Made by a program: the position numbers and the translations under genes. Below are positions 24,697 through 45,743 of a stretch of DNA of 64,000 nt, piece after piece. Positions within the stretch are counted from its first letter, which is position 1. Each line of letters starts with the position of its first letter. This DNA is from Hyphomonas jannaschiana VP2 (GTDB lineage: Bacteria > Pseudomonadota > Alphaproteobacteria > Caulobacterales > Hyphomonadaceae), in contig NZ_ARYJ01000002.1 of NCBI RefSeq assembly GCF_000685215.1, positions 248,001-312,000 of the forward strand. Reading direction: 5' to 3'. The notes beneath the pieces are model-generated. The model saw only the letters and a list, made by a program, of their open reading frames with translations. It was not told the DNA's origin and ran no database searches.

Positions 24697-24712
24697 GAGG
24701 GGGGCCTTCTTT

Positions 24713-25841: not shown

Positions 25842-25842
25842 T
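25561..25842 (-). CDS. Doubtful small ORF coupled to the PepSY gene
   Basis: A 93-codon frame whose ATG shares its A with the stop of the PepSY gene (TGATG), the classic translational coupling layout. The N-terminus has one hydrophobic stretch (about 3-16) and the rest is basic and low in order. Similar PepSY genes are often followed by small membrane proteins, which gives mild support. No family is recognised and the codon use looks non-coding in the second half, so it may be chance. Confidence 0.25.
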   Translation of the reverse strand: METVMIIVSQIVLICRSVSNGRGRFFSYTLPGRPAVKAAPRLDILHSTRDHARPCAIRFRSPSRFSGFVLSQDFNPRLAFVVSGSRGKTEAAA

Positions 25843-27233: not shown

Positions 27234-27293
27234 TTTGATTGGTCCGATTTACCGGCCGGACCTTCGCAGGAAGACCCGGCCGGCGGAAAATGA

Positions 27294-29429: not shown

Positions 29430-29474
29430 TCGGGAAAATTCTAATCGTACGCGTGTGTCAGGGGAAATGCAGAG

Positions 29475-29514
29475 ACCCTTTAGGGTGAGACTCCCATCCG
29501 GATACGGATGGGAG
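29475..29514 (-). terminator. Two hairpins between cupredoxin and TonB receptor genes
   Basis: On the minus strand a 10-base perfect stem with a 4-base loop (29491-29514; CTCCCATCCG and its complement) is followed by a short palindrome ACCCTTTAGGGT (29475-29486). They sit between the cupredoxin stop at 29616 and the receptor start at 29429. They probably end the upstream transcript, although no T-run follows; an mRNA leader role for the receptor is the alternative. Confidence 0.5.
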
Positions 29515-29615
29515 ATCCTCGCCTGCGTGTTCTTCTCTCGGGCTTCAAAAAGACGGTCTCAGATTTGTGCCTGAAACAGGAAGTCACTGGTCAGTCAGGG
29601 GCACGGCAACTCTGT

Positions 29616-30143
29616 CTATTTGCCAGCGGCTTCAACCCTGCCTCGTGTCAAGACCTGGTCGACAGAAGGCAATGCTGCCAGAACTTCGGGTGAAACATCG
29701 TCTGTTGCCGGGGAAGGCCCTTGCCACCCGCGATCTCCGGGACGACCGACTACGATCCGGCCAACCATTGCGGCCATTTCATGTGGAACGCAGTAATAAT
29801 CGTATACGCCTGGAACCGTCAGGATGACTTCTGCGCTTTCACCCGGCATCAGGAAACCGGTATCCCACGGTTCGGCGGCGGCGGGGATGCGTCGTAAGCG
29901 ATCAAAATTTGCGGGATGGTATGCCGTCGCAGTGTGACCGCTTCCTCTGTCATGGTTGACGAAGCGCACCGCTGTGCCCGGCGAAACCGCCAGACCTTGC
30001 GGTGAGAACCAGATCCGTTCACCCCGTGGAGTGCCACGCATTTCGATGGTAACGACACGCGTCGTTTGAAGCGATATTGGTAGGAGGAGGGCGGCGCTCA
30101 GGCCGCCCCCCAATGCGAGAAACTGTCGGCGTTCGGTGATCAT
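29616..30143 (-). CDS. Tat-exported cupredoxin (plastocyanin/azurin-like)
   Basis: A 175-residue periplasmic blue-copper protein. The N-terminus has a twin-arginine-type signal (RRQFLALGGG, then a hydrophobic stretch to about 26). The copper site is visible as a His in GSGHTATAYHP (H70 or H76) and the C-terminal C118-x2-H121-x4-M126 loop. It probably carries electrons or handles copper. It starts in the stop of the preceding gene (ATGA), with which it forms a pair. The unusual C-terminal extension past the copper loop (about 40 residues) is not part of the domain. Confidence 0.85.
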   Translation of the reverse strand: MITERRQFLALGGGLSAALLLPISLQTTRVVTIEMRGTPRGERIWFSPQGLAVSPGTAVRFVNHDRGSGHTATAYHPANFDRLRRIPAAAEPWDTGFLMPGESAEVILTVPGVYDYYCVPHEMAAMVGRIVVGRPGDRGWQGPSPATDDVSPEVLAALPSVDQVLTRGRVEAAGK

Positions 30144-30559
30144 TTGGCCAGTCGTTCCTTGGCTCCGGCATCGTGGAAGAGCACGATGTGAGCGTGAGGT
30201 TTTTCCACGCCGGGGTGGCCGGCATTGTAGTAGATATCAACACTACTCACCGTGTGCGAACCAATCCCCAGATCGTCGTAGGCGCTGCCGTTTTGAAGGT
30301 CTTCAAGGGGTGTCATGTAAACCGTGGCAGATAGTTTGCCGTCATGGTCATAGGCAAGGAAGGGGCCTGCAGGCAGATTTTCGGGCACCACAAAAAGCGT
30401 GCCGAGGCCCGGAATGAACTCCGGCAGGGGGAGTGCGTCACTGACCTGTATGTAAGGGGCGCCGGGAGGCGCCGACTTCAGGGCGTCTTCATCATGTGCG
30501 AATGCCGGGCCGGCCACGAAAAGCGAGGCAGCAACAAACAGGGGGGATAAAATCTTCAT
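30140..30559 (-). CDS. Secreted protein of unknown function coupled to cupredoxin
   Basis: From the ATG at 30559 (ribosome site AAAGGAC) it has 139 residues. A clear Sec signal peptide runs to about residue 21 (FVAGPAFA) and leaves a soluble periplasmic protein with the conserved-looking stretches FIPGLGTLFVVPENLPAGPF, YMTPLEDL and YNAGHPGVEKPHAHIVLFHD. The several histidines in the last part could bind metal. I do not recognise the family with certainty. Coupling to a copper protein suggests a role in copper or redox handling, but that is inference. Confidence 0.75.
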   Translation of the reverse strand: MKILSPLFVAASLFVAGPAFAHDEDALKSAPPGAPYIQVSDALPLPEFIPGLGTLFVVPENLPAGPFLAYDHDGKLSATVYMTPLEDLQNGSAYDDLGIGSHTVSSVDIYYNAGHPGVEKPHAHIVLFHDAGAKERLAK

Positions 30560-30917
30560 CGTGAGTCCTTTGCGAGTTTCTCGGAGAGCCATTGATCGGC
30601 GCTCTGATCATTGGATGCAGAAACTCGAAGAATGTTCCCGGCACAGTCAGAACTTTCTGTATTTCTATTCAGCGAAAGCTCAGATGTTTCTCCTGATAGT
30701 TCACGACATGCGGCTAGGCCACATCCTGAAAATGGCTTGGTTAAAGTGCTGCGATCACCGTCTCCAACTTCCAAGACGTTCCACAAGGGGACGGGCGCCC
30801 AACTGCGATTTCTCCAGAAATTTCCCAAACCCGGGAACGCAGAGGCCTGCAAACGCATCCAATGGTCAGACAGCGAGCCTTCTGCCGCTGGACGGCACCA
30901 ATCGGAGGGGATTACCC
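30560..30917. other. Divergent promoter region
   Basis: The gap separates the minus-strand secreted-protein gene from the plus-strand membrane gene. The plus frame stays open back to 30561, but the sequence before 30918 is not membrane-like and has no ribosome site, so I read it as non-coding. No clear -35/-10 pair stands out. Confidence 0.35.
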
Positions 30918-31253
30918 ATGATCAATTACGCCAGTATCGTATTTGCAATTGCAGCTGCTGGGGGATTGTTTCTCGCGGCGCATACACTGCGCGATAAATT
31001 TGCACCCTGGGCGGTATCGCTCCTGCACGCCGGTCTTGGGGCGCTGGGCCTTGGCCTTCTAGTCGCGGCCTTGTTGCAAGGCGCCTCGCAGATCGTTCTG
31101 ATTGGTTTCGCCATTTTGCTGTTGGCGGCGGTTGCTGGCTTTTTTCTCGCGTCATTTCACTTGCGCAAAAGCCTGCCGCCCAAGGTCGCCGTTGTCGCCC
31201 ATGCCGGAATTGCCGTTGCTGGTTTCCTGATCATTTTGTCCCAGGTTTTCTGA
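30918..31253 (+). CDS. Small integral membrane protein
   Basis: A 111-residue protein with four predicted membrane helices in two similar halves (each about 50 residues with a central LLHAGLGALGL or VAHAGIAVAGF element), so it looks like an internal duplication. The GGAGG ribosome site supports the ATG at 30918. Three bases separate it from the DUF2231 gene, so they are co-transcribed. Function unknown; two His residues in the half-repeats (LLHAG, VAHAG) may bind heme or metal. Confidence 0.75.
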   Translation: MINYASIVFAIAAAGGLFLAAHTLRDKFAPWAVSLLHAGLGALGLGLLVAALLQGASQIVLIGFAILLLAAVAGFFLASFHLRKSLPPKVAVVAHAGIAVAGFLIILSQVF

Positions 31254-31256
31254 GTC

Positions 31257-31676
31257 ATGAGCCATCCGTTGCATCCCGCAATTGTGCACTTTCCAATCGC
31301 CTGCTGGACGCTCGCAGCCGGCTCCGACATCGCCGGTCTGTGGTTCGGGAAAATTCCTACAGGCTGGTCGGGCGGATTGCTCGCCATAGGCTGTGTGATG
31401 GCAGTCTTCGCGATGCTTGCCGGCATGGTCGAATTGCGGCGTGTTCCTGACGGGGCTCCCATGAAGGATGCCTGGGTTCACATGGCAGCGATGTTGGCTG
31501 CTTTCACCTTGTTCTCGTTGAGCTTGCTCGTGCGGCTAGAGCAAATGAAGTTGCATGGGCCGAATTCGGTTTCGCTTGTGCTCGACGCAGGTGGGGTCAT
31601 CGCGCTGGTGATTGGCGGCTTGTTTGGTGGTCGCCTGGTTTATGTTCATGGGGTCGGCCGAACCCCGCCCAAGTAA
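31257..31676 (+). CDS. DUF2231 family membrane protein
   Basis: A 139-residue membrane protein starting with the DUF2231 hallmark MSHPLHPAIVHFPIACW, where the His pair is conserved and may bind heme. Four hydrophobic segments follow, with a C-terminal GGRLVYVHGVG that is also typical. The family is often found beside cupredoxins, cytochromes or c-type redox proteins. The upstream small membrane protein is its operon partner. Confidence 0.88.
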   Translation: MSHPLHPAIVHFPIACWTLAAGSDIAGLWFGKIPTGWSGGLLAIGCVMAVFAMLAGMVELRRVPDGAPMKDAWVHMAAMLAAFTLFSLSLLVRLEQMKLHGPNSVSLVLDAGGVIALVIGGLFGGRLVYVHGVGRTPPK

Positions 31677-31749
31677 TGGTATCTGCCCCGCATTGGCCGT
31701 CACGCAGTCGCGGTGAACGGAGTGCGCTGCGCCCAACAGGAGATTGAAG

Positions 31750-32469
31750 ATGTTTGATAAACTGCCGACCCCGGCCCTGGCATTTGAGGGGGCGTCTGCA
31801 TCAAACCGGATCCGGGAAAGGCTGAGGACAGCGAGTCAGACGTTTCGTGCCAATGATAACATTGCTGCCTTCATTGAGGACGGTGAGCTGGATGAACTGC
31901 GCCTTGAAGTCGAGAACCGTATGATGGAGGTGCTTGATGCCTTGGTGATAGATATAGACAATGACCACAATACCGCCGGAACCGCTCGGCGAGTTGCAAA
32001 AATGTTCGTCGATGAAGTCTTTGCCGGTCGCTATAGCGCAGCGCCTTCCATCACCAGTTTTCCGAATGTGTCGCGGCTCAACGAACTGATGATAGTCGGT
32101 CCGGTGACCGTAAGAAGCGCATGCTCTCATCACCTTTGTCCAATCATGGGAAAGATCTGGATCGGCGTCCTGCCCAATACGGATGCGGAACTGATCGGTC
32201 TGTCGAAATATGCTCGCCTCTGTGAGTGGATCATGAGCCGGCCACAGATCCAGGAAGAGGCTGTTATCATGCTCGCCGATGAACTTGAAAGACGCATACG
32301 GCCGGATGGGCTGGCAGTCGTGATGGAGGCGGATCACTATTGCATGCAATGGCGCGGTATCAAGGATGAGCAGCCTGTGATGACCAGTTCGATTATGCGC
32401 GGCGCGTTCCTGGAAAACGATGCCTTGCGGCGTGAGTTCCTCGGGCTGAGAAATGGGCGGTACCAATGA
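31750..32469 (+). CDS. folE: GTP cyclohydrolase I
   Basis: Converts GTP to 7,8-dihydroneopterin triphosphate, the first step of folate, pterin or queuosine precursor synthesis. It has 239 residues from the ATG at 31750, which has AGGAG seven bases upstream. Zinc ligands are visible in CSHHLCPI and HYCMQWRG. The conserved VIDIDNDHNTAGTARRVAKMF, LSKYARLCEWI and RGAFL end are present. The first 45 residues are longer than usual. Being in an island next to an ECF sigma factor suggests a paralogue to a core folE, and a queF lies further right. Confidence 0.93.
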   Translation: MFDKLPTPALAFEGASASNRIRERLRTASQTFRANDNIAAFIEDGELDELRLEVENRMMEVLDALVIDIDNDHNTAGTARRVAKMFVDEVFAGRYSAAPSITSFPNVSRLNELMIVGPVTVRSACSHHLCPIMGKIWIGVLPNTDAELIGLSKYARLCEWIMSRPQIQEEAVIMLADELERRIRPDGLAVVMEADHYCMQWRGIKDEQPVMTSSIMRGAFLENDALRREFLGLRNGRYQ

Positions 32470-32596
32470 TATGAATGATCATCCGTATCATAGAATCCGA
32501 AGGCGGGGGCTTGCCAATAGCGACCATTCGCAGGTGACCAGTCCGAGAAGACCCAGGCAATTGCCGGCAGTTTTGCTACAACCCCAGGGGATGAAA

Positions 32597-33310
32597 ATGA
32601 CGAATGAAGAATACCGTATTCCATCTCGATATTCCAAAGCCTTTTCGGATGATGACCTGACCAGACTTGCTCGAGAAGGCGATAGTGCAGCTTTTGAAGC
32701 GATCATGCGCCGGCACAACCAGCTCTTGTTCCGGACTGCGCGCGGCATCGTTCGAAGTGACGGAGAAGCGGAAGACGTAGCTCAGTCGGCCTGGCTGCAA
32801 GCGTGGCGAGCACTTTCGAGCTTCCGCGGGCACAGTAAATTGTCAACCTGGCTTGTCCGGATCACCGTGAACGAAGCGCTTGGCCGAATGCGCCGGAAGA
32901 GCGCGCAAATCATTCCTTTGGAGGCAGCCATGATCTCGTCCGATGATGACATGCAGTCGGCGCTCACCGAAGCTCCAGACCACGGTCCGGAACAATCCGT
33001 CGAAAGGGTGCAGGTCCGCGCCCTCCTGGAGGCGCACATCGACATGCTGCCGGAGGTGTTCCGGAGCGTTTTTATGTTGCGGGCGATTGAGGAAATGAGC
33101 GTGGATGAGGTTGCGGAGGTATTGGACATTCCGGCGGCGACAGTACGTACACGGTATTTCCGTGCGCGGGCGTTATTGCGTGAGAGTCTCGCGCAAGACA
33201 TCGACATCGCGGTTGGCGAAGTATTCAGCTTCGCCGGAGAACGTTGTGACCGTATTGTGTCAGGCGTCATGGCACAGGTCAGATCAGAGGGGCTTTGTGA
33301 ACGCGACTGA
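32597..33310 (+). CDS. ECF-type RNA polymerase sigma factor
   Basis: An extracytoplasmic-function-like sigma factor of 237 residues. The ATG at 32597 is favoured because GGGG lies six bases upstream; a longer frame starts at 32453 but is unlikely. Region 2 shows DDDLTRLAREGDSAAFE, RHNQLLFRTARGIV..DGEAEDVAQSAWLQAWR and FRGHSKLSTWLVRITVN; region 4 shows LPEVFRSVFMLRAIEEMSVDEVAEVL and TVRTRYFRARALLRE. A 35-residue tail with EVFSFAGERCDRIV follows, as in one ECF subgroup. No obvious anti-sigma factor follows; a PhyR-like protein lies 1 kb downstream. Confidence 0.92.
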   Translation: MTNEEYRIPSRYSKAFSDDDLTRLAREGDSAAFEAIMRRHNQLLFRTARGIVRSDGEAEDVAQSAWLQAWRALSSFRGHSKLSTWLVRITVNEALGRMRRKSAQIIPLEAAMISSDDDMQSALTEAPDHGPEQSVERVQVRALLEAHIDMLPEVFRSVFMLRAIEEMSVDEVAEVLDIPAATVRTRYFRARALLRESLAQDIDIAVGEVFSFAGERCDRIVSGVMAQVRSEGLCERD

Positions 33311-33481
33311 GGCGGGATGTGACGGAGCAGATGCCAGGCTTTTGCACCCAGTGGATTTGGACGTTGAGCCGATCAGTTTAGGCCGGGCTCTTCGGCCTGC
33401 GTAGCCGGTTGGTGTGTTTGGCACAGGCACCGCGAGTGTCAGGCTCGCGGGCAGCCTGGGGCGCAATTGTGGGTAGATCAT

Positions 33482-34198
33482 ATGAACAGTTTGATTTCCA
33501 TCGTAGCAATAGTCGGCCTATTGCTTTTTGTGGGGACGGTTCTTGGGGGGATCGAGCGAGGCGGCTTCAAGCTGCGCTGGCTTCTGATCGCAGCGGCTCT
33601 TGTCGCCCTGAACGACTTCATGCTGGTGCGTGGCTATGGGCTGTTTCCAAGCATTCTGCCGCACGCAAATTGGAACTGGCAAGGCAAGGCGCTCGCGCTT
33701 GTCTCCACGCTCATTGTGGCGTCATCTCCCGCCTTTGGTTGGCGACGTGTTGGTTTCACAGTTTCACAACGAGGTGAAGGACAAGTCGCAATCGCAAGTG
33801 TTGTGACTGTTGTGCTTGTACTTCTTGTGATCTTGGCACTGATATTGCCGAATGATCCATTGGATCCTGAAACAGCCGCATTTCAAATGACACTTCCGGG
33901 ACTAGAGGAGGAAGCGTTCTATAGTGGTATACTACTTTATGCTCTAAATCAGGCGTTTCCGGCGCGGGTTCATTTTCTGGGTATCGAATGGGGCTGGGGC
34001 GTATTGCTCACAGCAGGCCTGTTCGGATTGGCGCACGCTTTCAGGTTTTCGGGTGGAGCGTTTCATTTTGATGGGGCCGCCATGTTGTGGACAGCCGGGC
34101 CGGCGACAATTGCGTATTGGTTGAGATTGCGTACCGGGAGTATTCTGCTTCCTGTGGTTTTGCACAATTTCGGGAATTCTATTGGGCTCCTGCTGTAG
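33482..34198 (+). CDS. CPBP-family membrane protein with an altered motif
   Basis: A 238-residue protein with about seven hydrophobic segments in the CPBP/Abi (Rce1-like) family. The EEExxF motif reads EEEAFYSG, where the usual FR is YS, so the catalytic Arg is missing; GLAHAF and HNFGNS, the second and third His motifs, are present. Activity as a glutamic protease is therefore uncertain. The ATG at 33482 is used; the TTG at 33467 is in frame. It lies between the sigma factor and the PhyR-like gene on the same strand. A membrane role in stress signalling is possible. Confidence 0.75.
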   Translation: MNSLISIVAIVGLLLFVGTVLGGIERGGFKLRWLLIAAALVALNDFMLVRGYGLFPSILPHANWNWQGKALALVSTLIVASSPAFGWRRVGFTVSQRGEGQVAIASVVTVVLVLLVILALILPNDPLDPETAAFQMTLPGLEEEAFYSGILLYALNQAFPARVHFLGIEWGWGVLLTAGLFGLAHAFRFSGGAFHFDGAAMLWTAGPATIAYWLRLRTGSILLPVVLHNFGNSIGLLL

Positions 34199-34366
34199 AG
34201 GTCATATTTACCGGTAAGAGCATTCGAATACGGAGTATTGAAAAGCGTAACTGCGGGCGGGCCGGTCTCAGCCCGGGTCTGCATTGGATTGTCCAGACTG
34301 TCGTGCCGGTATTTTTTACTCCACGAATACTTCAAAAGAAGTTTCTGACACTGGAGAGCTACCCGC

Positions 34367-35125
34367 GTGTTGTATGAGCTTGTCACTAAGGAGTTGCCCT
34401 ATCTGCGGCGTTACGCGCGGGTGATCTCCGGCAATCAGATGACGGGAGATTTGTGCGTCGAGACCTTGCTTTTGGAGCATGTCATTACGCCGCAGGCATC
34501 AGATGCACATCTTCCGAAAGACCGAATTGAGCTTTTTGCGTTGCTTGATGAGATCCTTGTAAACCTTGCTCCGGCTCCCTCACTGACTGAGCCGAATACA
34601 GCCTTTCAAAGGCTTTCCTTTTTGTCTCGCAGGGCGCTGTTTCTCACCGCCGTCGAACAACTGGATCCGACCGCTGTAGAAATGATCCTGAAGGTCAGAC
34701 CGCACGACCTGACGGTTATCATGAACGAGACAGAAAAGAGACTTGCTTCTTCGCTGGCAACGGACGTTTTGATCGTCAAAGGTACAGGCAGGATTGCATT
34801 GCAGCTGCAGGAAATCGTAGAAAGCCTTGGTCACCGAATAATCGCTCAGGCAAATACACGGGGAGATGCCGTCAGAGAGGCCCGTGCAACCCGACCGGGA
34901 CTTATGTTGGTCGAAAGTCAGCTTGCAGATGGATCATCCGGTTTCGGCGCGCTGGACGATATTCGCAAATTCCACAAAGCGCCGAGTATTGTCATCACAA
35001 GCCTTCAAGACCGCATGCGTATTGGTAGAGACAATGAGCCAGCTTTCCTTGTCTCCACACCTTTGCAAGTCGATCATGTGAAATCGGTGATTTGCCGGGC
35101 CCTTTTGGCCGTGATCGCAGGTTAG
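34367..35125 (+). CDS. PhyR-like regulator with degenerate receiver domain
   Basis: A 252-residue protein in the PhyR layout. An N-terminal sigma-like domain (about 1-125, starting LPYLRRYARVISGNQMTGD) precedes a receiver domain (131-252) with LGHRI and QLADGSSG. In the receiver the phosphoacceptor Asp is Glu183, the acidic pocket is Lys138-Gly-Thr, and the conserved Lys is Thr231; the conserved Thr (VIT) is kept. It should not be phosphorylated. By family analogy PhyR sequesters anti-sigma NepR to free a sigma factor. No NepR is present here. A GTG start with a GGAG site ten bases upstream is used. Confidence 0.85.
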   Translation: MLYELVTKELPYLRRYARVISGNQMTGDLCVETLLLEHVITPQASDAHLPKDRIELFALLDEILVNLAPAPSLTEPNTAFQRLSFLSRRALFLTAVEQLDPTAVEMILKVRPHDLTVIMNETEKRLASSLATDVLIVKGTGRIALQLQEIVESLGHRIIAQANTRGDAVREARATRPGLMLVESQLADGSSGFGALDDIRKFHKAPSIVITSLQDRMRIGRDNEPAFLVSTPLQVDHVKSVICRALLAVIAG

Positions 35126-35514
35126 TTTTCTGACCGTCTGGTGCGGTTCACCTACGGTTCGTAAAGGTGGAGAGGGGCAGGCCCGATCGAACGGGATTGC
35201 AATCCATAGATATTGTAGGCGCGTGACACCTTCGCGGTCGAACTTGGTTCCCGCAAACATGAAAGTCGCTTCTAATGCGCCCTGCAACAACCGCCATGTC
35301 GGAATACGGAGAGTACATGGTTTTCGGCGTGCGAATCGTCTGGCAAGTCATTCTCTCGGAGAGCTCTGTCACACCAAAGAGGCAAAATTGACTGGCGCGC
35401 AATTGGCGCGCAAATACTCAATTTTGATGTGATTCTGTGGTGTTCTGGGATTATAAGAGTTAGCTAGAGCATTGTAATTATTGGGTTGGTGTTTGAATGA
35501 TTTTACTTTCTTCA
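35126..35514. other. Gap at the island's right end, with tandem GC repeats
   Basis: No supported gene. At 35394-35415 the 11-base unit GGCGCGCAATT is repeated once in tandem (GGCGCGCAAAT), about 100 bases inside the island end. Such direct repeats near tRNA attachment sites can be arm-type sites for an integrase or excisionase. The A/T-rich stretch 35415-35520 abuts the tRNA fragment. Confidence 0.4.
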
Positions 35515-35561
35515 TTTTTGTAATCAGAGGGTCGCGGGTTCGAGTCCTGCAGCCGGCACCA
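35515..35561 (+). other. 3' half of tRNA-Thr(TGT): attachment-site (att) footprint
   Basis: The bases fold as the 3' part of a tRNA: anticodon loop TTTGTAA with anticodon TGT at 35519-35521, stem TCAGA, variable loop GGGTC, T-arm GCGGG-TTCGAGT-CCTGC with one G:T pair, acceptor strand AGCCGGC, discriminator A, and encoded CCA to 35561. The expected 5' acceptor GCCGGCT, D-arm and 5' anticodon stem are absent upstream. It is thus a truncated duplicate, as left at one end of an element that integrated into tRNA-Thr. Threonine identity is inferred from the anticodon. Confidence 0.8.
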
Positions 35562-35698
35562 TGGGAAATTCCCCGGCATCCTTGGATCAATGCTTGTCGT
35601 ATCTGCGCCAAAGTATTGCGCTGGCGACGTGTAGCCTGTGTAGTCATCTGTTCCAGATGGGAGAGGTGACGGCATTGAGTGAACCAGATGGCACGATA

Positions 35699-36664
35699 AT
35701 GACCGAGCGGATGGACTGGGACAATATGCGCGTTTTCCGCATCGTTGCGGAACTGGGCAGCATGAACGCCGCCGCGCACCGTCTCCAGGAATCCGCGCCC
35801 ACCATCGGGCGCAAGATCGACCAGCTGGAAAAGGATCTGAGCACGGTCCTGCTCGTGCGAACGACGCGCGGGGTGGAGCTGACGGATGCCGGCCGGATCG
35901 CGCTCAGCCATATCCATGCGATGGCCGAGTCGGTGAGCGAGGTCTTCGAAAATGCCGGTCATCGCGACCGGGATGTCGAGGGGCGCATCGTTCTGGCTAC
36001 CGGTGACGGCCTCGGGCCCTACTGGATCGCTCCGCGCCTGCCGCAATTTCAGGCGATGAACCCCAAGGTCCAGTTGCGGATGCGCGTGGTGGACCGGGTG
36101 CCGGATCTGATGGAAGGCGAGGCGGACATCGCCATCCAGTTTACCGAGCCCAAATCGCCGGAAATCATCGGCCGGAAGCTTGGCGTGCTCCATTATATGA
36201 GCTTCGCCTCCGAGGCTTACCTGGAAGAAGTTGGCCAGCTGCCGAACAGCCTCTTTGAGTACTATCGCTACAAGACGATCCTTCACGAGGGGTATGTCCA
36301 CCAGATTGAGCGCTGGGCGCCGCGGGTGGCCGAGCTGAAGAAGATGATCGACTATTCGCTGGTGACCAACTCTGCCGCGGCAATGATCGAGGTCTGTGCG
36401 AATGGCGGCGGCATCGCAGTGCTGCCATCCTATCTGGGCGAGGTGGACAACCGGCTGCAGCCGCTGAACCTGCCGGAGATCGCCCCGATCCAGTTCTGGC
36501 TGACCTATACCGAACGTGTGCGCCGTCTGCCGCAGGGCCAGGCTGTGCTGGACTGGCTGTGGACGATTTTCGACGAGCGCCGGATCGCCTGGTTCCGGGA
36601 TGCGTTCGTGCACCCGGCGCAGATCATGCGCGGGGCAGAATCGCAAATCGCCCGGACTTTCTAG
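35699..36664 (+). CDS. LysR-family transcriptional regulator
   Basis: A 321-residue LysR regulator. The ATG at 35699 gives MTERMDWDNMRVFRIVAELGSM; the open frame reaches back to 35561 at the tRNA fragment, but that extension is not LysR-like. The helix-turn-helix contains ESAPTIGRKIDQLEKDL. The effector domain has a GDGLGPYWIAPRLPQF segment and VCANGGGIAVLPSYLG. It is the first gene right of the island end. Its target is unknown; the adjacent XRE regulator is convergent. Confidence 0.88.
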   Translation: MTERMDWDNMRVFRIVAELGSMNAAAHRLQESAPTIGRKIDQLEKDLSTVLLVRTTRGVELTDAGRIALSHIHAMAESVSEVFENAGHRDRDVEGRIVLATGDGLGPYWIAPRLPQFQAMNPKVQLRMRVVDRVPDLMEGEADIAIQFTEPKSPEIIGRKLGVLHYMSFASEAYLEEVGQLPNSLFEYYRYKTILHEGYVHQIERWAPRVAELKKMIDYSLVTNSAAAMIEVCANGGGIAVLPSYLGEVDNRLQPLNLPEIAPIQFWLTYTERVRRLPQGQAVLDWLWTIFDERRIAWFRDAFVHPAQIMRGAESQIARTF

Positions 36665-36708
36665 GCGAACCTGAAAGCCGGGCGATCAATTGAAATCCGT
36701 AAGGCCGG

Positions 36709-37086
36709 TCAGTCTGCCGACAGGGCCTTGAGGACGCGGGCCATGGCGCCGAGCTTTTCGACGGAATTGGCGCGGTTGACCCAGGAGTGGCATTCGTTGC
36801 GAGCCTTCTCCAGCGGATCGGGGGCGTTGCCCGCATTGGCTTTGGTATCTTCGAACAGGTCCGTGATCTCGACGCGCAGAACGTCCGCCACATTCGACAA
36901 CATGCCAGCGCTCAGGCGGTTGGTACCGGTTTCGTATTTCTGCAGCTGTTGGTGAGAAATACCCAGTTCCGTGCCGAGTTCGGCCAGGGTCATGTTGCGA
37001 TCAAGGCGAAGTTTGCGAATTTTTTCCCCAACCATCTGGTCGATTGCGGTTGGGGCGCGGGATGTAGTCTGTCGGCGAGATGGCAC
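36709..37086 (-). CDS. XRE-family helix-turn-helix regulator
   Basis: A 125-residue DNA-binding protein. An N-terminal arm with SRRQTTSRAPT precedes the HTH_XRE domain (about 18-75): IRKLRLDRNMTLAELGTELGISHQQLQKYETGTNRLSAG. A C-terminal half of about 45 residues includes a helix ending LEKLGAMARVLKALS-like sequence. The start is GTG at 37086 with GAGG 11 bases upstream; an internal ATG at codon 18 is possible. Such regulators control cell cycle or stress genes in Caulobacterales relatives. It is convergent with the LysR gene. Confidence 0.85.
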   Translation of the reverse strand: MPSRRQTTSRAPTAIDQMVGEKIRKLRLDRNMTLAELGTELGISHQQLQKYETGTNRLSAGMLSNVADVLRVEITDLFEDTKANAGNAPDPLEKARNECHSWVNRANSVEKLGAMARVLKALSAD

Positions 37087-37351
37087 TTTTCGTTATCCTC
37101 AGAAGTTTACAGATTTCCGAGTAGCACCGTGTTCTCTCTAAAGGTGTGGAAGCAACTTTTATGCTTATAAAAAAATTGAAACACTGACCCTGTCGGGCTG
37201 TAAGATAGCGAATGTTATATTCTGTAGATACAGGTAAAGGGGGACCCTAACCACCTATAAAATCAAGCTTTATCCCGAAGGGTGCTGACGCTCAACTTTT
37301 TGGGGTAGTTCTTGTATAAGTTGCTGTGACAACAGGCTTTTTGCCTATCGA

Positions 37352-40300
37352 TCAGTAGTCTTTTTTCCACCTTATGGAGACTTTGCTCTCGCCTGTTGCA
37401 GTTGTTTCAGAGGTCACGGACACTTGCGGCCGGGGCTGCCATTCGACCTCTACAGAACTGCCTTCGGCCCCTGCAGATTTCAGTTCGAGATACACATCAT
37501 CGCTGAGATATTGGCCAACACCAATCTCAGCGCTGCCGGATTCCGATGTGCCGATGGAGAATCGGTCGATCCCGAGCGCCGCCTGTACTTCGCTGGCCGG
37601 GTCGAAGCCGGTCGAATTACCGGACAGTGTCGCGATTGTGTTCGCCAGTTGCGCCGCTTCCAGGGCCGAAAGGTCCATTGAAGACCGGCCGAAGAGCAGC
37701 CGGGAAAGGATTTCATCCTGCGGCAGGTCCGGGGAGCTGGAGAGTTCGATCACGGGCTTCAGTGGCGATCCGGTCACATTGGCCTGCACCTTGAACCCAT
37801 TCACCGTGCGGTCGGCCGAGAGACTGATCTGGGCGCGATTGACCGGACCGTCGAATGTGATCGTCCCTGTGTCGAAGACGAAAGGCCGGCCTGCCAGGTC
37901 GAGATCACCGCGGATCAGCGTCGTCGTGCCGTTTAGGCGCGGGGCGGCGGGTGTGCCCGTCAGTTTGAGATCCGCCTTCCATTCACTGTCGAGGCCGCGG
38001 CCCGTTACATAAACACGGCGGTCGGCCTTGATGGCGATGTCGAGGCCAAGCGTCCGGCGCAGGCGGCTGGTCCCCGGCTCAGCAGGCGGGTCGTCCGTCC
38101 AGCGGACGTCCAACGCGTGCGGGCGCGATGAAGGCAGATTGTCGAGCGAGAAGCGCGCCTGTGTGATGGTCACGTCGCCGGAGAGATTTCGTGCCTCGGC
38201 ACTGTCGGCCAGGACGAGCTTGCCCGTGCCACGCGCATTATCGCCGTCGCGGTTATAGAGCAGCAGGTTCTGGAAATCAGCTTCCAGGTCGGTGCGCTCA
38301 CCGGCGAGGCGGCCGTCCAGCGAGAATGAGCCGCCGCCCGGCGCGCTGGCCTTGCCGGTCACATTGAGGACGTCCCCGTCATAGTCTGCATCGGCAGAGA
38401 CAGCGGACAGCTGGAAGCCCATGCTGCCGAGTTCATAAGTACCATCCCGGAGGCTCGCCTTTGCTTGATAGGCGGGAGCGTCAAGCGTCCCGGCGAGGCT
38501 GGCGGAGGCGTCGATCCTGCCGCTGATGTCATGGCCATAGGCGAGGGCGGCCGTCCGCAGCACGGCGAGGTCGCCGGTGAGGCTGGCCTGGCCTTTCAGC
38601 GCGGCCGTCCGGTTCGGCGCGACCAGTTTGCCCGCTTCGGCGGTGACCGGCACATCTGCGCTGCCTGTCAAGACGAGGCGGCCGCCATAGTCGCTTTTCA
38701 GGTCGATGGAGAGGCTGTTGCGGTCCAGCGTTCCGTCGAGGTTCAGCATGAAGGAAGAGTCGAGCCCCGGCACATCGCTGGCCGCCACAACATGGACTGT
38801 GCCGGACGGGTCTGCCCCGAACACGCGCAGGTCGCCATGGCCTTCCAGATGGGTCCGGTTGGTCGTGGTTTCGTAGAGGGCAAGCACCGGGCTGAGGTCG
38901 ATCCCGGTCGCATCGAAAACGAGGCGCGTCTCGTCGCCGCCGCCGGTGAAGCCCGCCTTGAACCGGCCGCTCAGCAGGGAGATGTCGGCATCCAGTTCCG
39001 GCGTCTCGCCCAGCCGCCAATGGGCCGGGGCGGCGGTGGCAATGGGCTCGCCGAGCGCTGTGCCCGAGAGTTCGAACATGCCGTTCGCGGCCGGTTCGCC
39101 GAAGCTGGCGGAGGCGATGAAGGTCAGGTCCGTCGGGTAGGTGGGGACCTCGGAAATCAGCCGGGCGCGGATGTCATAGCCTTCCGGGGCATTGCGCAGC
39201 GTGGCGCTGGCCTTGTCGAACACGAGTGCCCGGCCGGGGCCGAGGGCGAGGTCTGTGACGTTCAGGTCTGCTTTCAGGGCGAACGGGTCGTCGCCCTTGC
39301 GCTCGAAATGGATTGTGCCTTCAGCCTCGCGGACTTCGCCGCTGCTCCAGGAGAGCGCTGTGCCGTCGACGTCTATATCGCCCGTCAGATCGCCGGAATC
39401 GGCCAGCGACACGGCGCCGCTGAAGGTGCCGGGGCCCAGCGTGCCGGTGAGGCCGGTCAACTGGGTGAGGCCATCTGCCCGCACCAGATTGGCGTCTGCG
39501 GAGACGGGCTCGCCATCGGCCGTGGCGCGCAGGGTGAGCGGGCCGCTGAGGCGATTTCCGGCGCTGATCAGCTTCGCGGTCAGGGCCAGATCTTCGACCC
39601 GCCGCCCGGCGCCGGATGCGCTGCCGCCGGAGGTTTCGATGTCATAATCAATGCGGTTCTGGCCATGACCAATCCGGACTACGCCATGACTAAGCGTGAC
39701 GTCCCAGCCACCTGCGCTGACCGGGGCGGACTGGTCGATGACTGCGCGCAACTCGCTCGTGCCAGACCAGGCCCAGTCGCCCTTCGCCGTCACTTTGGCC
39801 CGCTGTCCGGCAAGCGTCGCCGAGGCGATGTTCAGCGCGCCGGATTTCACCTTGAGCGACGCGTCGAGTTTGGGCGCGGTGCCGGTCAGCTGGAGCAGCG
39901 GATCGGGCAGGCCCGCAAAGTCGCTTGCCGCCAGGCTGAAATCCACAGCTGGCCGGGTCAGGCCGCCGGTGACGGAGAACGGGCCGGAGACTTGGCCGCG
40001 CATCTTGCCGGGCAGCCGGTCGATCGCGGTGGCAAGCGTGCCGGTCAGGTCCAGCGTGCGGGCGGAAAGGTCGATGGCACCACTGGCCGAGAGGCGGCCT
40101 TTGGCCAGCGAGGCGTCGGCGGTTTCGAACACGACCCGGCGGGCGGCGCGGTCGTAAGAGCCTTCGGCGTGAAGAGCGGTGGACTCTCCGAACAGCGGCG
40201 CGGCGGCACTGACATTGCCAAGCAGGCGGGTCAGTTTCAGGTCACCGGTGAAGCGGATGTCGTTCTGGCCGATGGTGAGTTTGAGCGGGCCGTCCGCGCG

Positions 40301-41467
40301 CGTGAAGGGCAGGGCCGCCTCGCCGCTGACGTCCAGCCCGGCCTTGCCCTGCAGCAGCCAGTCCTTCCCGTCCTTGGCGGCAATGCCGGTAAAGGCGAGT
40401 TTGCCGGGCTCGCCCAGCAGGGGCTGGAGGTCGGTCACCTCGGCATCGAGGTTTGCCGCTTCGGTCAGCGTCCAGTTGCGCGTGTCGATCTCGCTGCGAA
40501 CGGACAGCGCACCGGCGCGCAGCGAGGTCTCAAGGCCGAAGGGAGCTTCGCGCCGCCCGGTCGTGCTCTCGATGCGGATGCTGGCCTCGCTGCCGATCAG
40601 CGTGACCAGCTGGCGGTCCAGCATGGGCAGGCGCGTGGCGTCGAGATTTGCATTCGCTGTGAGCCGATTGTCCTTGATTGTCAGCTCTGCCGTGGCGGCC
40701 GGCTGGTCGCCGATGGTCAGCGTGGCATCGCCGGTGGCGGCTTCCGGCGTTCCGGAGGCGGTGGCCTTCAGCGACACGCCGGTGCCGGTGTCGAGGCCAA
40801 TGAGGTTCGCGATCACCCCGTCCGGTGCACCATTGATGTCGGCATCGAGGCTGAAGGGTCCGGTCTCTTCGCGGCGCAGGTCGATCAGGAAACGGTCCGT
40901 GCCGGCATCGCGCGGCGTGGCATCGAGGCGGACGGCCATGGTGCGCCCGGCCTGGTCAAACCGGCCGCTGACATTGAAATGCGCTTCCGGCCCGGCAAAG
41001 CCTTCCTGAAAGGCGAGGTCCGGAATGGTCAGGCTACGGAGTTTGATGCGGATGTTGCCGCCACCTTCCGAAGGGGGCTGTTTTTCCGTCACCGGGCGGC
41101 GGATGAAATTAAGCTGGCCGGCCGAGAGGGCCTTGACATCAACAAGGCCGGAGATGAGCGCCATGGGTGCCCAGTCGACCGAGACATTCTGCGCCACGAC
41201 CCATTCGCCCTCCGTATCGCGCACGGCCAGGCGGCGGAGATACATCTTGCCGAGTGGGTCGCCGGACAGGCCTTCGGCATCGATCGTGCCATAGGCGCCC
41301 GCCTTGCGGCCATCGATCTGCGAGAGCAGCCAGGCGCGTCCGCCATCGCTGGCGACCCAGAGGCGTGCCGAGATCAGTGCGACGAGCACGATCAGCAAAA
41401 GGGCAGCAGCCCCGGACAGCCAGGGATGTTTCCGGATCGGGGAAAGAGCTTTGGAGAGGGCTGACAT
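37352..41467 (-). CDS. tamB: TamB, translocation and assembly module subunit
   Basis: Large (1371 residues) inner-membrane-anchored protein that spans the periplasm and works with TamA in outer-membrane protein assembly or lipid transport. One N-terminal transmembrane helix (about 16-34) is followed by over a thousand residues of beta-rich AsmA/TamB-type repeats, and the C-terminal DUF490 domain with PxxPxIELSSSPDLPQDEILSRLLFG and the final VEWQPRPQVSVTSETT region. The ATG overlaps the tamA stop (TGATG), so both are translated together. Long GC-rich frames on the opposite strand are shadows. Confidence 0.94.
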   Translation of the reverse strand: MSALSKALSPIRKHPWLSGAAALLLIVLVALISARLWVASDGGRAWLLSQIDGRKAGAYGTIDAEGLSGDPLGKMYLRRLAVRDTEGEWVVAQNVSVDWAPMALISGLVDVKALSAGQLNFIRRPVTEKQPPSEGGGNIRIKLRSLTIPDLAFQEGFAGPEAHFNVSGRFDQAGRTMAVRLDATPRDAGTDRFLIDLRREETGPFSLDADINGAPDGVIANLIGLDTGTGVSLKATASGTPEAATGDATLTIGDQPAATAELTIKDNRLTANANLDATRLPMLDRQLVTLIGSEASIRIESTTGRREAPFGLETSLRAGALSVRSEIDTRNWTLTEAANLDAEVTDLQPLLGEPGKLAFTGIAAKDGKDWLLQGKAGLDVSGEAALPFTRADGPLKLTIGQNDIRFTGDLKLTRLLGNVSAAAPLFGESTALHAEGSYDRAARRVVFETADASLAKGRLSASGAIDLSARTLDLTGTLATAIDRLPGKMRGQVSGPFSVTGGLTRPAVDFSLAASDFAGLPDPLLQLTGTAPKLDASLKVKSGALNIASATLAGQRAKVTAKGDWAWSGTSELRAVIDQSAPVSAGGWDVTLSHGVVRIGHGQNRIDYDIETSGGSASGAGRRVEDLALTAKLISAGNRLSGPLTLRATADGEPVSADANLVRADGLTQLTGLTGTLGPGTFSGAVSLADSGDLTGDIDVDGTALSWSSGEVREAEGTIHFERKGDDPFALKADLNVTDLALGPGRALVFDKASATLRNAPEGYDIRARLISEVPTYPTDLTFIASASFGEPAANGMFELSGTALGEPIATAAPAHWRLGETPELDADISLLSGRFKAGFTGGGDETRLVFDATGIDLSPVLALYETTTNRTHLEGHGDLRVFGADPSGTVHVVAASDVPGLDSSFMLNLDGTLDRNSLSIDLKSDYGGRLVLTGSADVPVTAEAGKLVAPNRTAALKGQASLTGDLAVLRTAALAYGHDISGRIDASASLAGTLDAPAYQAKASLRDGTYELGSMGFQLSAVSADADYDGDVLNVTGKASAPGGGSFSLDGRLAGERTDLEADFQNLLLYNRDGDNARGTGKLVLADSAEARNLSGDVTITQARFSLDNLPSSRPHALDVRWTDDPPAEPGTSRLRRTLGLDIAIKADRRVYVTGRGLDSEWKADLKLTGTPAAPRLNGTTTLIRGDLDLAGRPFVFDTGTITFDGPVNRAQISLSADRTVNGFKVQANVTGSPLKPVIELSSSPDLPQDEILSRLLFGRSSMDLSALEAAQLANTIATLSGNSTGFDPASEVQAALGIDRFSIGTSESGSAEIGVGQYLSDDVYLELKSAGAEGSSVEVEWQPRPQVSVTSETTATGESKVSIRWKKDY

Positions 41468-43314
41468 CAGAAGGCCTGCCCGATGGAAATATAGACCTGA
41501 ACCGGGTCATCGCCCTCGCGCGGATTGATCGGCGTGGCGATGTCGAGCCGGATCGGACCGAAGCCCGGATAGTAGCGCACGCCGAGACCGGCGGCGGTGC
41601 GCAGGTCGCCGAAGACCGCGCCGAAGTCCGTGGAGGCTGCGCCGGTGTCGACAAAGGCGGCATAGCCCCAGCGTTTCGATTTGCGCCAGCGCAGCTCGAA
41701 AGAAGCGTCGAACAGGGCTTCGCCGCCGACATAATCACCATCGATATTGGTTGGCGACAGCGACTGATAGGCATAGCCGCGCACGGTGCCGCCGCCGCCC
41801 GCGAAGAACAGGCGGTCGGCCGGCACGTCCGTGTCGCCCAGGAAGCCGCCGGCTTCGACCCGCGCCGCAGCGATCAGGTCGTCGGTAAACGAATGATAGG
41901 TTGTCGCATTGGTCAGGTAACGCGTGTAGACAGCGTTGATCGTGCCGCTCGAGATACTGGGCTCCAGCGTCAGGAACAGGCGGTTGCCGTCCTGCGGGTC
42001 CAGTCTGTCCTTCACCGTGTCATAAGTTCCGCTGAGCGGCGTGGAGAAGGTCACCTGGTCAATCGGGTCGGACGGGCCGGAGCGGGTCAGCTCATACTCG
42101 ACCGTCCGGGTCACATCGACAAAGGCGCCGGCCGAAATGGTGAAGTTCTTGTTGAAGGGCTGGGACAAGGTGGCGCCGGTTTTGAGACCGGAGAGGTCAT
42201 AGGCGTCCGTTTCCTGCTGGCGGACCCCGGTTTCCAGATTCAGCGTCCGGCCATAGCGGCCGATATTGGGCAGTTCGTAACTGGCCGTCAGGTCACGGCT
42301 GAGATTGGCGACGGCGCCATCCACGCGCAGCGTATCGCCCCGGCCGGTGAGGTTGCGCCGCTCCCAGAAGGCGTCGACGCCTGCGCCCTCGGTCGTGGAC
42401 AGGGAGGCACCGATCCCGATGGAGCGGGGTTTCGCCTCCGCCAGTTTCAGCTCCACCGGATACGTGCCATCCGTATCGGGTGTCTCGGCGATCTCGATGC
42501 CGATGCCGTCATACAGGCTGGACGAGCGAAGGCGGGTTCTCAGTGTCCGGATCTTCTCCGGCGTGTAGTAGTCGCCGGGCTCCCAGCTGCGCATGACGCG
42601 GACAGCCCGCGGGCGCACATTGGTTTCGTCCGGCAGGACCAGTTCGCCGAGTTTGACGCGCGGACCGGGGGTCAGCTTGTAGGTGACCTCCACGGTCGCG
42701 TCCTGGCGTGAGGCCAGCACGTCGATGTCCGCGCTCTCGGCGAAGGCGTAGCCGGCATCCTTCAGATGGTTCAGCAGCACCTTGTCCATCCGCTCGATGG
42801 AGCTGGTATGCGCGGGGCCGCCGATCAGCAGGCCTTTCTGCGCCTTGTCGAGTTCCGCGCGGGTCTTGTCGTCCACCTCGCCGTCATAGTCGACCGAGAC
42901 CGAGGCGATGCGGAACCGCTTGCCGGGGATCACGTCGATGCGGGGTGTGCTGGTTGCGCTGTCGATCCGCCGGGGAATGGCGCTGGCGGCGAGATAGCCC
43001 TCGGCAGCGAGGAATTCCTCGACGGTTCCGGCGGCGTTGTCTGCCCGGCGGCGGGCCTCCAGCAGGGAGGCGGGCGGCGTCTTGTAGGTCTGCAGCACGG
43101 CATTGGCGCGTGCGGCGAGATTGTCCGGCAGGCCGTCGAGGGAGGCGGCCGCATACTGGTTGCCGGTCACGCCATTGCTGTTCGCGTTTCCGCCCAGAAG
43201 CGTGCATGCCGAAAGGGTGCCCGCCAGCGCGAGGCTGGCAGCACGACGGGCAAGGCCCGTACCCGTCTGGCGGGGGCGAGAAGGCATGTGTCGGCCGGCC
43301 ATTGATTTAACCAT
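41467..43314 (-). CDS. tamA: TamA, outer-membrane BamA/TamA-family assembly protein
   Basis: Outer-membrane Omp85-family protein of 615 residues that partners TamB. After an N-terminal signal (hydrophobic to about 36) come POTRA-like repeats (roughly 85-310) and a barrel (320-615) with the FFAGGGGTVRGYAYQSL motif and a C-terminal Phe (SIGQAF). The signal contains LSAC, a lipobox-like site, so it may be cleaved as a lipoprotein; a standard signal peptidase I site is the alternative. It overlaps tamB by one base. Confidence 0.93.
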   Translation of the reverse strand: MVKSMAGRHMPSRPRQTGTGLARRAASLALAGTLSACTLLGGNANSNGVTGNQYAAASLDGLPDNLAARANAVLQTYKTPPASLLEARRRADNAAGTVEEFLAAEGYLAASAIPRRIDSATSTPRIDVIPGKRFRIASVSVDYDGEVDDKTRAELDKAQKGLLIGGPAHTSSIERMDKVLLNHLKDAGYAFAESADIDVLASRQDATVEVTYKLTPGPRVKLGELVLPDETNVRPRAVRVMRSWEPGDYYTPEKIRTLRTRLRSSSLYDGIGIEIAETPDTDGTYPVELKLAEAKPRSIGIGASLSTTEGAGVDAFWERRNLTGRGDTLRVDGAVANLSRDLTASYELPNIGRYGRTLNLETGVRQQETDAYDLSGLKTGATLSQPFNKNFTISAGAFVDVTRTVEYELTRSGPSDPIDQVTFSTPLSGTYDTVKDRLDPQDGNRLFLTLEPSISSGTINAVYTRYLTNATTYHSFTDDLIAAARVEAGGFLGDTDVPADRLFFAGGGGTVRGYAYQSLSPTNIDGDYVGGEALFDASFELRWRKSKRWGYAAFVDTGAASTDFGAVFGDLRTAAGLGVRYYPGFGPIRLDIATPINPREGDDPVQVYISIGQAF

Positions 43315-43483
43315 GCGAGTTCTGGACCAGATTCATCGGTATTTCATGAATATGGGAGCTTAGATTGCCTGAATCCTGCATGAATTACGGTAACTTCCTG
43401 TTAGTCCGCAGCTGGCTGATGCGGAACCATTGTGCGGCGATGCCCGTAAACTATGTTCAGCTGGTTTTCCGAAAGGCCCTTTG

Positions 43484-44503
43484 ATGGACTATCTTCTGGT
43501 GCTGGCGGGCCTTGTCCTGCTGATTTTTGGTGGCGAAGGGCTCGTGCGCGGCTCGGTCGCGGTCGCCCGAAAGCTCAACATTTCAGAGCTTGTGATCGGC
43601 CTGACCCTGGTGGGCTGCGGCACATCGATGCCGGAGCTCGTAACCAGCCTGCGCGCCATCGATACCGGCGCGGTCGGCATCTCCATCGGCAATGTCATGG
43701 GATCGAACATCGCCAACATCCTGCTGGTGCTGGGCGCCGCGGCGCTGGTAAAGCCGATCCTGACCAATCCCGGTGCGCTGAAACGGGATGCGGCGGTGGT
43801 CATCGGCGCGACGGCGGCGCTCTGCTGGCTGATCTGGCTGGACGCGTTCACCCGGCTCAGCGGCTTCCTGCTGGTCACCGCGCTGGTCCTTTACATCATA
43901 CTGTCGCTGGTCGCGGACATGAAGGGCAACACGCCAGAGGCCGAGATGCATGCCGGTGAGGGCGAGATGGTCGAAGCGCCTTATGGCATCGTGAAAGGCC
44001 TGCTGATCGCGCTCGCCGGGCTTGTGGGCATCGTGTTCGGCGCGCGCTTCATGGTCGACGGCGCCGTCGGCATTGCGCGCGACATCGGCGTCAGCGAGGC
44101 GGTGATCGGCATGTCCATCGTCGCTGTCGGTACCAGCCTGCCGGAACTGGCGACCTCGCTGGTCGCGGCCCGCAGCGGCAAGGCGGATGTCGCGCTTGGC
44201 AACATCATCGGCTCCAACATCTTCAACATCCTCGGCATCCTGGGCGTGACGGCGCTGATCCATCCGTTCAGCGTGATGCAGAACCATGCCGGGGACATCG
44301 CAGGCGAGGCCATGCAGGGCGGCGGGCAGAGCATTGTCACCTCCACCGATGTCGGCGCGCTGGTGCTGTCGCTGTTCTTCCTTTTCCTATTCGGCATGAC
44401 CGGCAAGCGGATCGCGCGCTGGGAAGGGGGGCTTCTTCTGGCGGGCTATGCGCTTTACATGGGGCTCCTGTTCAACATCATTCCAGTTCCGGCGTTGCTC
44501 TAA
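43484..44503 (+). CDS. Calcium/sodium antiporter (CaxA/YrbG-type)
   Basis: A 339-residue inner-membrane cation antiporter of the Ca2+/cation exchanger superfamily. Two inverted halves each carry an alpha repeat: [14 protein letters not shown] then [16 protein letters not shown] in the first, [16 protein letters not shown] then [16 protein letters not shown] in the second. The loop between halves is acidic ([13 protein letters not shown]). About ten hydrophobic segments are visible. The ATG at 43484 has an AAAGG site. The gene lies one base before queF. Confidence 0.93.
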
Positions 44504-44504
44504 A

Positions 44505-44972
44505 ATGTCTGACAATCCGATCTACCAGAACCTCGGCCAGCTCGGCCAACAGACCGCCCAGCCGCAAAGCCCGGAAGAGGCTGAGCTGGAGCGGGTGCCC
44601 AACCCGCATGCCGGGACGCTCTACCTGACGCGCTTCGTGGCGCCGGAATTCACCTCCATCTGCCCGGTCACCGGCCAGCCGGATTTCGCGCATCTCGTGA
44701 TCGACTATGCGCCGGGCGAGTGGCTGGTGGAGTCCAAGAGCCTGAAGCTCTACCTCACCAGCTTCCGCAATCATGGCGCCTTCCATGAGGACTGCACGGT
44801 CTCCATCGGCAAGCGCATCTTCGACTTCACCGAAGCCAAATGGCTGCGCATCAGCGGTTACTGGTATCCACGCGGCGGTATCCCGATCGACGTGTTCTGG
44901 CAGTCCGGTGAGGTGCCGGCCGGGCTCTACGTGCCCGAGACCGGCGTCGCCTCCTATCGCGGGCGCGGCTAG
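44505..44972 (+). CDS. queF: NADPH-dependent 7-cyano-7-deazaguanine reductase
   Basis: Reduces preQ0 to preQ1 in queuosine synthesis. It has 155 residues, the single-domain QueF size. The catalytic cysteine lies in [11 protein letters not shown] (C53, with Asp60 nearby), and the family's [18 protein letters not shown] helix and [16 protein letters not shown] end are present. The start at 44505 is in frame with a longer opening to 44448; the ATG fits family length. It follows the antiporter gene by one base and converges with the nitroreductase gene three bases away. Confidence 0.95.
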
Positions 44973-44975
44973 GCG

Positions 44976-45599: not shown

Positions 45600-45685
45600 A
45601 TGCCGTCCCTACATTGAACCGATCCGGGCGAAAAGCGGGCTTTCAGACTCTGTGCTTGCCGGGAGGGCGATGACAGTCTATTTTA

Positions 45686-45700: not shown

Positions 45701-45743
45701 TTTTCGAACGTTGAACTTTTCGAACATAGATCGTGGCCGCGGT

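Follow-up and report, generated by a model that had tools for sequence, protein, structure and literature searches.

The closest described relatives of the locus analysed here are the trb-type ICEs of Mesorhizobium represented by ICEMlSymR7A, which carry the gene cluster traG - msi031 - trbBCDEJLFGI - msi021 (PMC8627217). The element that we delimit in Hyphomonas jannaschiana VP2 resembles the published description of ICEMlSymR7A in the trb order BCDEJLFGI beside traG, in a relaxase and a DUF736 gene, in a small HTH excisionase-like gene, in TraF-like, FseA-like and LuxR/LuxI-like genes, and in integration at a tRNA 3' end (PMC8627217). It occupies tRNA-Thr(TGT) where ICEMlSymR7A uses tRNA-Phe, it carries respiratory, metal, lasso-peptide-like and anti-phage genes where the latter carries symbiosis genes, and its integrase is displaced from attL, unlike that of ICEMlSymR7A as described (PMC8627217). 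Judged from sequence, the Hyphomonas element is ICEMlSymR7A-like: a backbone of known kind within a larger, presumably conjugative, composite island.

For the cargo, other systems can be likened by description. The 145-kb ICE form of the perchlorate reduction island of Dechloromonas RCB likewise joins conjugation to a complete respiratory trait, for perchlorate instead of nitrate and in another host class (PMC4623255). The NCE of Thermus thermophilus, an unrelated host, is likewise a mobile, conjugative stretch of DNA that carries nar genes (PMC5748679). A similar mix of nitrate reductases, NO detoxification, lasso peptide and heavy-metal genes is described for GI21 on plasmid pOXR137-01 of Thalassobaculum, which is a region of an apparently conjugative plasmid and not an ICE (PMC12016528). 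Sphingopyxis granuli TFA, in which anaerobic growth on nitrate was shown and whose genome holds putative ICEs, has narU/narGHJI with an oppositely transcribed FtrB-like regulator, as here; the description of its nar cluster assigns it to no delimited ICE, unlike the Hyphomonas cargo (PMC4741004). Our literature search, with most subscription journals outside its reach, yielded no paper on an ICE in Hyphomonas or Hyphomonadaceae.

The window, i.e. the whole stretch analysed, comprises 64,000 nucleotides (C2:248001-312000) of contig C2 of the host genome (G000; 3.64 Mb, a draft of 30 contigs). The features around the half tRNA gene, by window position, are:

35393..35412 (+): TGGCGCGCAATTGGCGCGCA, a putative arm-type site for the integrase, 104 nt inward of the right core
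35517..35561 (+): probable attR core, the 45-nt 3' half of tRNA-Thr(TGT) from anticodon loop to CCA, ending at C2:283561
35562..64000 (no strand): host chromosome right of the island; GC rises to 0.61-0.69 in most 2-kb windows
35699..36664 (+): host LysR-family gene, the first host gene right of attR; its homologue adjoins the intact tRNA-Thr in G007

Positions 35517-35561 read TTTGTAATCAGAGGG...CAGCCGGCACCA. ARAGORN found no tRNA in the window and no Rfam family reached its gathering threshold there; the 5' half of the tRNA-Thr is thus missing, as the sequence-only reading had claimed. Its interval of 35515-35561 does contain the half tRNA, with a start two bases too early, the limits of exact identity placing it at 35517. 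With up to three mismatches allowed, a 42-nt part of the half tRNA has exactly two sites in G000, C2:66445-66486 and C2:283520-283561, which share one orientation and match it without any mismatch, and a backwards control pattern of this core has none. The first site falls inside an intact tRNA-Thr(TGT) at C2:66411-66486, on the same contig, which is the upstream gene with a shared 3' half that had been proposed as a check. The exact repeat extends the 42 nt by three bases before and one after, i.e. 45 tRNA bases plus one, and core end lies 217,075 bp from core end. As in tRNA-integrated elements generally, a direct repeat of the tRNA 3' end bounds the element, one copy within an intact tRNA. 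Our preferred reading, with a probability of roughly 0.92, is an ICE of 217 kb integrated at the 3' end of tRNA-Thr(TGT), with the half tRNA as its right end (attR).

Base composition and related genomes agree with these limits. In 5-kb windows GC steps from 0.558 (C2:280001-285000) to 0.647 (C2:285001-290000) across the site, a step already noticed by the sequence-only reading; the 45 kb left of the half tRNA have GC 0.53-0.58, against 0.60-0.66 in host DNA on both sides. The same reading placed the island correctly to the left. The GC change that it described is real, but at 75-135 kb of C2 island GC (0.58-0.64) is near that of the host, and the island of more than 35 kb is real with its size greatly underestimated, the 35 kb seen being only the distal segment of 217 kb. 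The empty site sought in a relative was found in G007, where left and right flanks (81% and 84% identical, respectively) meet at one intact tRNA-Thr. Similarity to the right flank (LysR), 64-79% in pieces, begins within about 190 nt of the tRNA in G009, G013, G017 and G020, and those parts of the host DNA right of the island that were compared are 80-84% identical as DNA in G099, G004 and G007. The 42-nt core (up to three mismatches) is present in 15 of 41 genomes searched, G000 included.

Another line of evidence is the 20-nt motif beside the cores. A twin of TGGCGCGCAATTGGCGCGCA lies at C2:66536-66555, 49 nt inside the left core, and at up to two mismatches the motif has only these two places in 400 kb of C2 on both strands, both at att sites. 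All five elements with a G000-type integrase (G000, G004, G006, G089, G119; 0-1 mismatches) have it 49 nt inward of the left core, and all four right ends (G000, G004, G006, G099; 0-2 mismatches) have it 104 nt inward of the right core; it is absent from the vicinity of 13 other tRNA-Thr cores. At the left end of elements whose integrase is next to the tRNA, the motif bases encode the end of the integrase; coding constraint could therefore add to conservation there, not at the right end. Outside this spacing count, because its core exceeded the mismatch limit, stands locus L044 (integrase 67% identical), with an arm-like motif of two mismatches 48 nt from a tRNA-Thr(CGT) which lies 4.5 kb from the integrase.

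This geometry bears on the simplest objection, that a segmental duplication or an assembly artefact copied part of the tRNA. The assembly is indeed a draft of 30 contigs, yet the repeat comprises exactly the core and one further base, the two arm sites keep fixed but unequal distances from their cores, and the same geometry occurs in G004, G006 and G099; we regard this explanation as very unlikely. On exact ends, arm geometry and other genomes together we reject an origin of the half tRNA by chance or duplication.

The proposed ICE has a site-specific integrase of its own:

C2:74118-75245: tyrosine recombinase (integrase), PF00589, Pfam match 2.7e-14; 7.6 kb from attL

It is the only one of three PF00589 matches in G000 that falls within the island. 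A second integrase was considered for the distal 146 kb and rejected, there being no PF00589 match there; transposase-type domains HTH_Tnp_1 and rve occur at C2:148474-149576. The sequence-only reading expected a tyrosine integrase beside the tRNA; it is near, 7.6 kb off, and a decayed integrase tail intervenes. This C-terminal relic lies directly at the tRNA (C2:66526-66711; 58% over 55 aa, E 5e-11), so that the present element may be a fusion. G004 and H. atlantica show the same arrangement of a relic at the tRNA and a displaced intact integrase. All five integrases at least 86% identical are at tRNA-Thr(TGT) sites. Of five records of integrase relatives, four are Hyphomonas and one is Henriciella.

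The tRNA-side relics of G000, G004 and H. atlantica carry the exact arm motif at +49. Within the displaced intact genes the motif has three mismatches over 19 nt in G000, one in G004 and none in H. atlantica, and the last two values weaken the idea that displaced copies decay. There is a faint suggestion that the relic tail is retained because it carries an att arm.

Integrase tails, mostly with stop codons, adjoin tRNA genes at C2:66526-66711, G004:C2:1179622-1179861, L043:12409-12561, L097 and L098, and look as if the arm-bearing gene end persists after loss of the rest. Remoter integrase relatives have tRNA genes for Thr(CGT), Phe, Met, Ala, Val and Gly as neighbours (L044, L045 = L085, L086-L090, L093, L094; L045 and L085 appear to be one contig). 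In L044 the distance is 4.5 kb; in the others no more than about 110 nt separate the 3' end of the integrase gene from the tRNA. The stretches examined around the weaker relatives L091, L092, L095, L096 and L099 contain no tRNA.

The displaced integrase also invites another reading, in which successive elements accumulated in tandem at one tRNA-Thr, the orphan half stems from an older, crippled one and the core does not move 217 kb. The relic at the tRNA with an intact integrase 7.6 kb off, repeated in G004 and H. atlantica, fits such accretion. So does G019:C1:48466-98230, in which an intact tRNA-Thr and an orphan half with one mismatch enclose 49.7 kb that contain neither a match to the G000 integrase nor the arm motif; this stretch is probably a different element, and other elements thus use the tRNA-Thr site too. 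Further, none of the 42 one-kb windows of the distal 43 kb is matched (over at least 500 bp) in the fetched stretches of G099, G006 or G004. On the other side, a gap-free search of 400 kb of C2 that tolerated as many as 10 substitutions in the 45 nt found no third core, and the island has a single PF00589 match. Moreover, the ICE has the same kind of right end, with the arm at -104, in G099 and in G004, where a related element of 145.6 kb occupies this tRNA-Thr and terminates on the right in an orphan half; this attR type thus belongs to the ICE family. We consider accretion possible, though less likely, and retain one ICE ending at the half tRNA as the preferred reading.

The element so delimited is composite: left relic with 7-kb cargo, 63-kb core, 13-kb metal-efflux/IS insert, 90-kb cargo and 43-kb distal segment.

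C2:66487-74117 (block 1): integrase relic at the tRNA, then TonB receptor and others
C2:74118-136878 (block 2): conjugation core
C2:136.9-150.1 kb (block 3): CusA/CzcA-type efflux and IS genes
C2:150.1-239.7 kb (block 4, 89.6 kb): respiratory and metal cargo
C2:240.8-283.5 kb (block 5, of which window 1..35516, no strand, is a part): distal low-GC segment; the island extends leftward to C2:66487

Block 3 has no match in any of its 13 one-kb windows in the stretches of G099, G006 and G004 fetched.

Genes of the 63-kb core (C2:74118-136878) were called by a purpose-made hexamer-score caller, and their starts and counts are approximate. Pfam matches comprise TrbI, CagX (TrbG), TrbE-type, T2SSE (TrbB), TraG, relaxase DUF3363, HTH_17 and ParB, and further VirB8 (TrbF), VirB3 (TrbD), TrbC, DUF2274, DUF736, ArdA and an FseA-like protein; an S26 peptidase (TraF-like) is also present. 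Relaxase, coupling protein and mating-pair formation genes are all there in long open frames, the relaxase with a strong DUF3363 match and its PF03432 nuclease domain just under the cut-off. Genes 84 to 73 run in the order traG - gene 83 - trbBCDEJLFGI - DUF2274, i.e. as an ICEMlSymR7A-like cluster, with Pfam support for TraG, TrbB, C, D, E, F, G, I and DUF2274, and position or inspection by eye for TrbJ, TrbL and gene 83; TrbJ (gene 78) and gene 83 have no Pfam match. What we take to be TrbL (gene 77), TrbJ, gene 83, the sigma/anti-sigma-like genes of the core and several metal genes were assigned by eye. By gene order alone, the DUF2274 gene would correspond to msi021 and gene 83 to msi031.

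Counterparts of rlxS, rdfS, traF and the DUF736 gene are present as DUF3363 relaxase, an HTH_17 protein (a putative RdfS), S26 peptidase and DUF736. A protein with Trans_reg_dom and RovC_DNA-bd domains (C2:104996-105781) stands for the DUF2285-type FseA, being FseA or its antiactivator; we take PF10074 to be the former DUF2285. LuxR-, LuxI- and PhyH-like core genes match under the family cut-offs (NCBIfam for LuxR and LuxI), and no Msi107 transglycosylase was identified among the genes scanned. Thirty-three of 55 called core genes match G004, 28 at 82-100% and five at 61-73%; in G004, other sequence splits the trb cluster between trbE and trbD.

The sequence-only reading had taken the cargo as metabolic and the island as an unusual fitness island; given its trb T4SS, relaxase and coupling-protein genes, the island is not purely metabolic. 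A related alternative is a non-conjugative genomic island or degenerate prophage that used a tRNA. Most scanned genes outside the 63-kb core are metabolic or metal-resistance cargo, as such an island would have; T4SS, coupling-protein and relaxase genes nevertheless stand in long open frames, and the 12 genes from DUF2274 (73) to traG (84) are 91-99% identical at the protein level in G004. We hold this alternative to be very unlikely.

Taking the island as an ICE, a possible course of events can be outlined. The C2:74118-75245 recombinase would have joined the 45-nt core of the tRNA gene to attP on the element in its circular form, rebuilding an intact tRNA at the left (attL) and displacing the 3' half 217 kb away (attR). 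The directly repeated 20-nt motif beside each core would be the arm site of the integrase. The small HTH protein (RdfS-like), encoded beside a traF-like gene, probably aids excision to a circle, which the DUF3363 relaxase would nick and the TraG/Trb system transfer. Possible control might come from LuxR/LuxI-like quorum sensing and the FseA-like activator. We infer recombination chemistry, excision, transfer and regulation alike from sequence features.

The core also houses genes of other kinds. A CBASS-like anti-phage operon (2TM effector, cyclase, E1-E2 and JAB proteins) lies at C2:87629-91747 (L007:7629-11747), and an IetA/IetS-like defence pair at C2:109249-112749 (L008:9249-12749). A lasso-peptide-like locus at C2:124184-132725 (L009) encodes an isopeptidase-like S9 peptidase, proteins resembling a macrolactam cyclase and a transglutaminase, and a candidate precursor of 47 aa that matches the benenodin family (E 2.2e-5), precursor and cyclase matches being under family cut-offs. 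Four genes of this locus match G004 at 61-82%, and by eye we take it to include a TonB receptor.

The genes of block 4 fall into the following sets:

Block 4, histidine and metal genes: hutH, hutU, CzcA, copper ATPase, CopB
Block 4, nitrate and oxygen-independence genes: narGHJI, NarK, NnrS, NrdJ, SCP2 and two U32 proteins, FtrB
Block 4, molybdenum-cofactor genes: moaA, MoaD/E/C-type, MoeA-like, MoCF- and MobA-like proteins

The SCP2 and two Peptidase_U32 genes would form a UbiTUV-like set. Adjoining narG, C2:226164-228881 (L014:6164-8881) encodes a 905-aa fused double MFS transporter, its second half NarK/NarU-like.

Block 4 aligns with G099 contig C37 over 89.7 kb at 97.8%. Among its one-kb windows, 64 of 89 are at least 99% identical, 15 are at 95-99% and 10 below 95% (median 99.5%), against a median of 82.9% in the right host flank (39 of 48 windows matched), the one 48-kb flank from which we judge the divergence of the two genomes. 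Such near-identical cargo in another species with an 82.9% flank points to recent movement. The core has a median of 88.3% (29 of 62 windows matched, the G099 contig ending within the core). G099 has the exact attR core, the arm at -104 and the LysR gene 2.5 kb further out, and its element therefore occupies the same tRNA-Thr site; the G099 assembly examined, whose contig ends short of the left end, has no match to the G000 integrase. Some ORFs of G099 are, by eye, presumably acyltransferase-like. G006 shares much of block 4 up to 178 kb at 96-100% identity and the nar part at about 84-93%, and its nar cluster adjoins homologues of ICE genes 97-102, a pattern from which parts of block 4 appear to move or recombine independently of the core. 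From these identities, the nitrate-respiration and metal block seems to have passed recently between Hyphomonas species, directly or via others. At C2:121-124 kb, metal-transport genes of the core are 99.0-99.9% identical in G099 and G006, neighbouring core windows mostly being at 73-92%; this is perhaps a second recent exchange.

A plasmid comparison covered three of twelve 20-kb tiles into which the island was divided. With the nar tile 49 plasmids matched, all at 60-80% identity and each over less than 80% of the query; the metal tile matched one plasmid, and the conjugation tile 14 (six at 80-90%), each with coverage of at most 2%. No close plasmid source is among the matches to the three tiles.

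The cargo leads to a tentative suggestion, which we think may be right but would not favour: that the ICE spreads as a unit a near-complete oxygen-independence package (NarGHJI/NarK/NnrS, Moco genes, NrdJ and the UbiT-U-V-like set), and that exchange among ICE relatives is faster for this block, which lies between attR and the luxI/PhyH-like genes, than for the conjugation core. If this is true, one conjugation could make an aerobic Hyphomonas a nitrate-respiring facultative anaerobe. In the present host the package is partly redundant, since there is another moaA (C3:359019, so that the island molybdenum-cofactor genes are not the sole host set), a second NrdJ-type gene at C15 (52% identical) and an own cbb3 oxidase.

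Across genomes, narG is above cut-off in 15 of 101 in the family (11 in the genus), NrdJ of the nar-linked type (at least 80%) in 12 of 42 in the genus and a second U32 gene in three of these 42 (G000, G099, G006). Nar clusters also occur in G016 and G060, 56-96% identical over genes 187-213 where matched, that of G016 about 300 kb from its tRNA-Thr. The ICE could account for the patchy occurrence of nar genes in the genus, and its exact att sites allow a test of mobility. Because oxygen-independent quinone and nucleotide genes lie beside the nitrate reductase, gain of anaerobic growth by one transfer is testable as well.

The cargo named by the sequence-only reading (cbb3 oxidase, cysIJ, metE, gdhA) does lie on the island, in its distal segment:

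241..3746 (+): second cbb3 oxidase; ccoN 241-1893, ccoO 1895-2680, ccoP 2877-3746
8588-9748, 9745-11556, 11462-13336 (-): cystathionine gamma-synthase, cysI, cysJ
18818..21097 (-): metE
22837..24306 (-): NADP-specific glutamate dehydrogenase gdhA
25842-27233 (-): PepSY-TM protein
27294-29429 (-): TonB-dependent receptor
34367..35125 (+): PhyR-like regulator; PhyR_sigma2 domain, receiver domain under its cut-off

With cysIJ/metB DNA as query, 110 of 299 order-level genomes gave a match, of which the longest, in two genomes, is 66% identical over 3.6 kb; no source of the segment was found among the 299. G012 matches the segment with ccoN/ccoO-like and one LysR-like sequence at 64-72% DNA identity. 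The island cbb3 is nearest to the G012 copy (70%), ccoN being matched in 41 of 42 genus genomes; it is not a relocated host gene, as the host retains its own ccoN (C7:177781), 55% identical to the island copy. Near full-length metE is found in two of 42 genus genomes (G000, and G118 at 62%), with weak partial matches in two more. Between the PhyR-like gene and attR, no further long ORF among those scanned has a family match.
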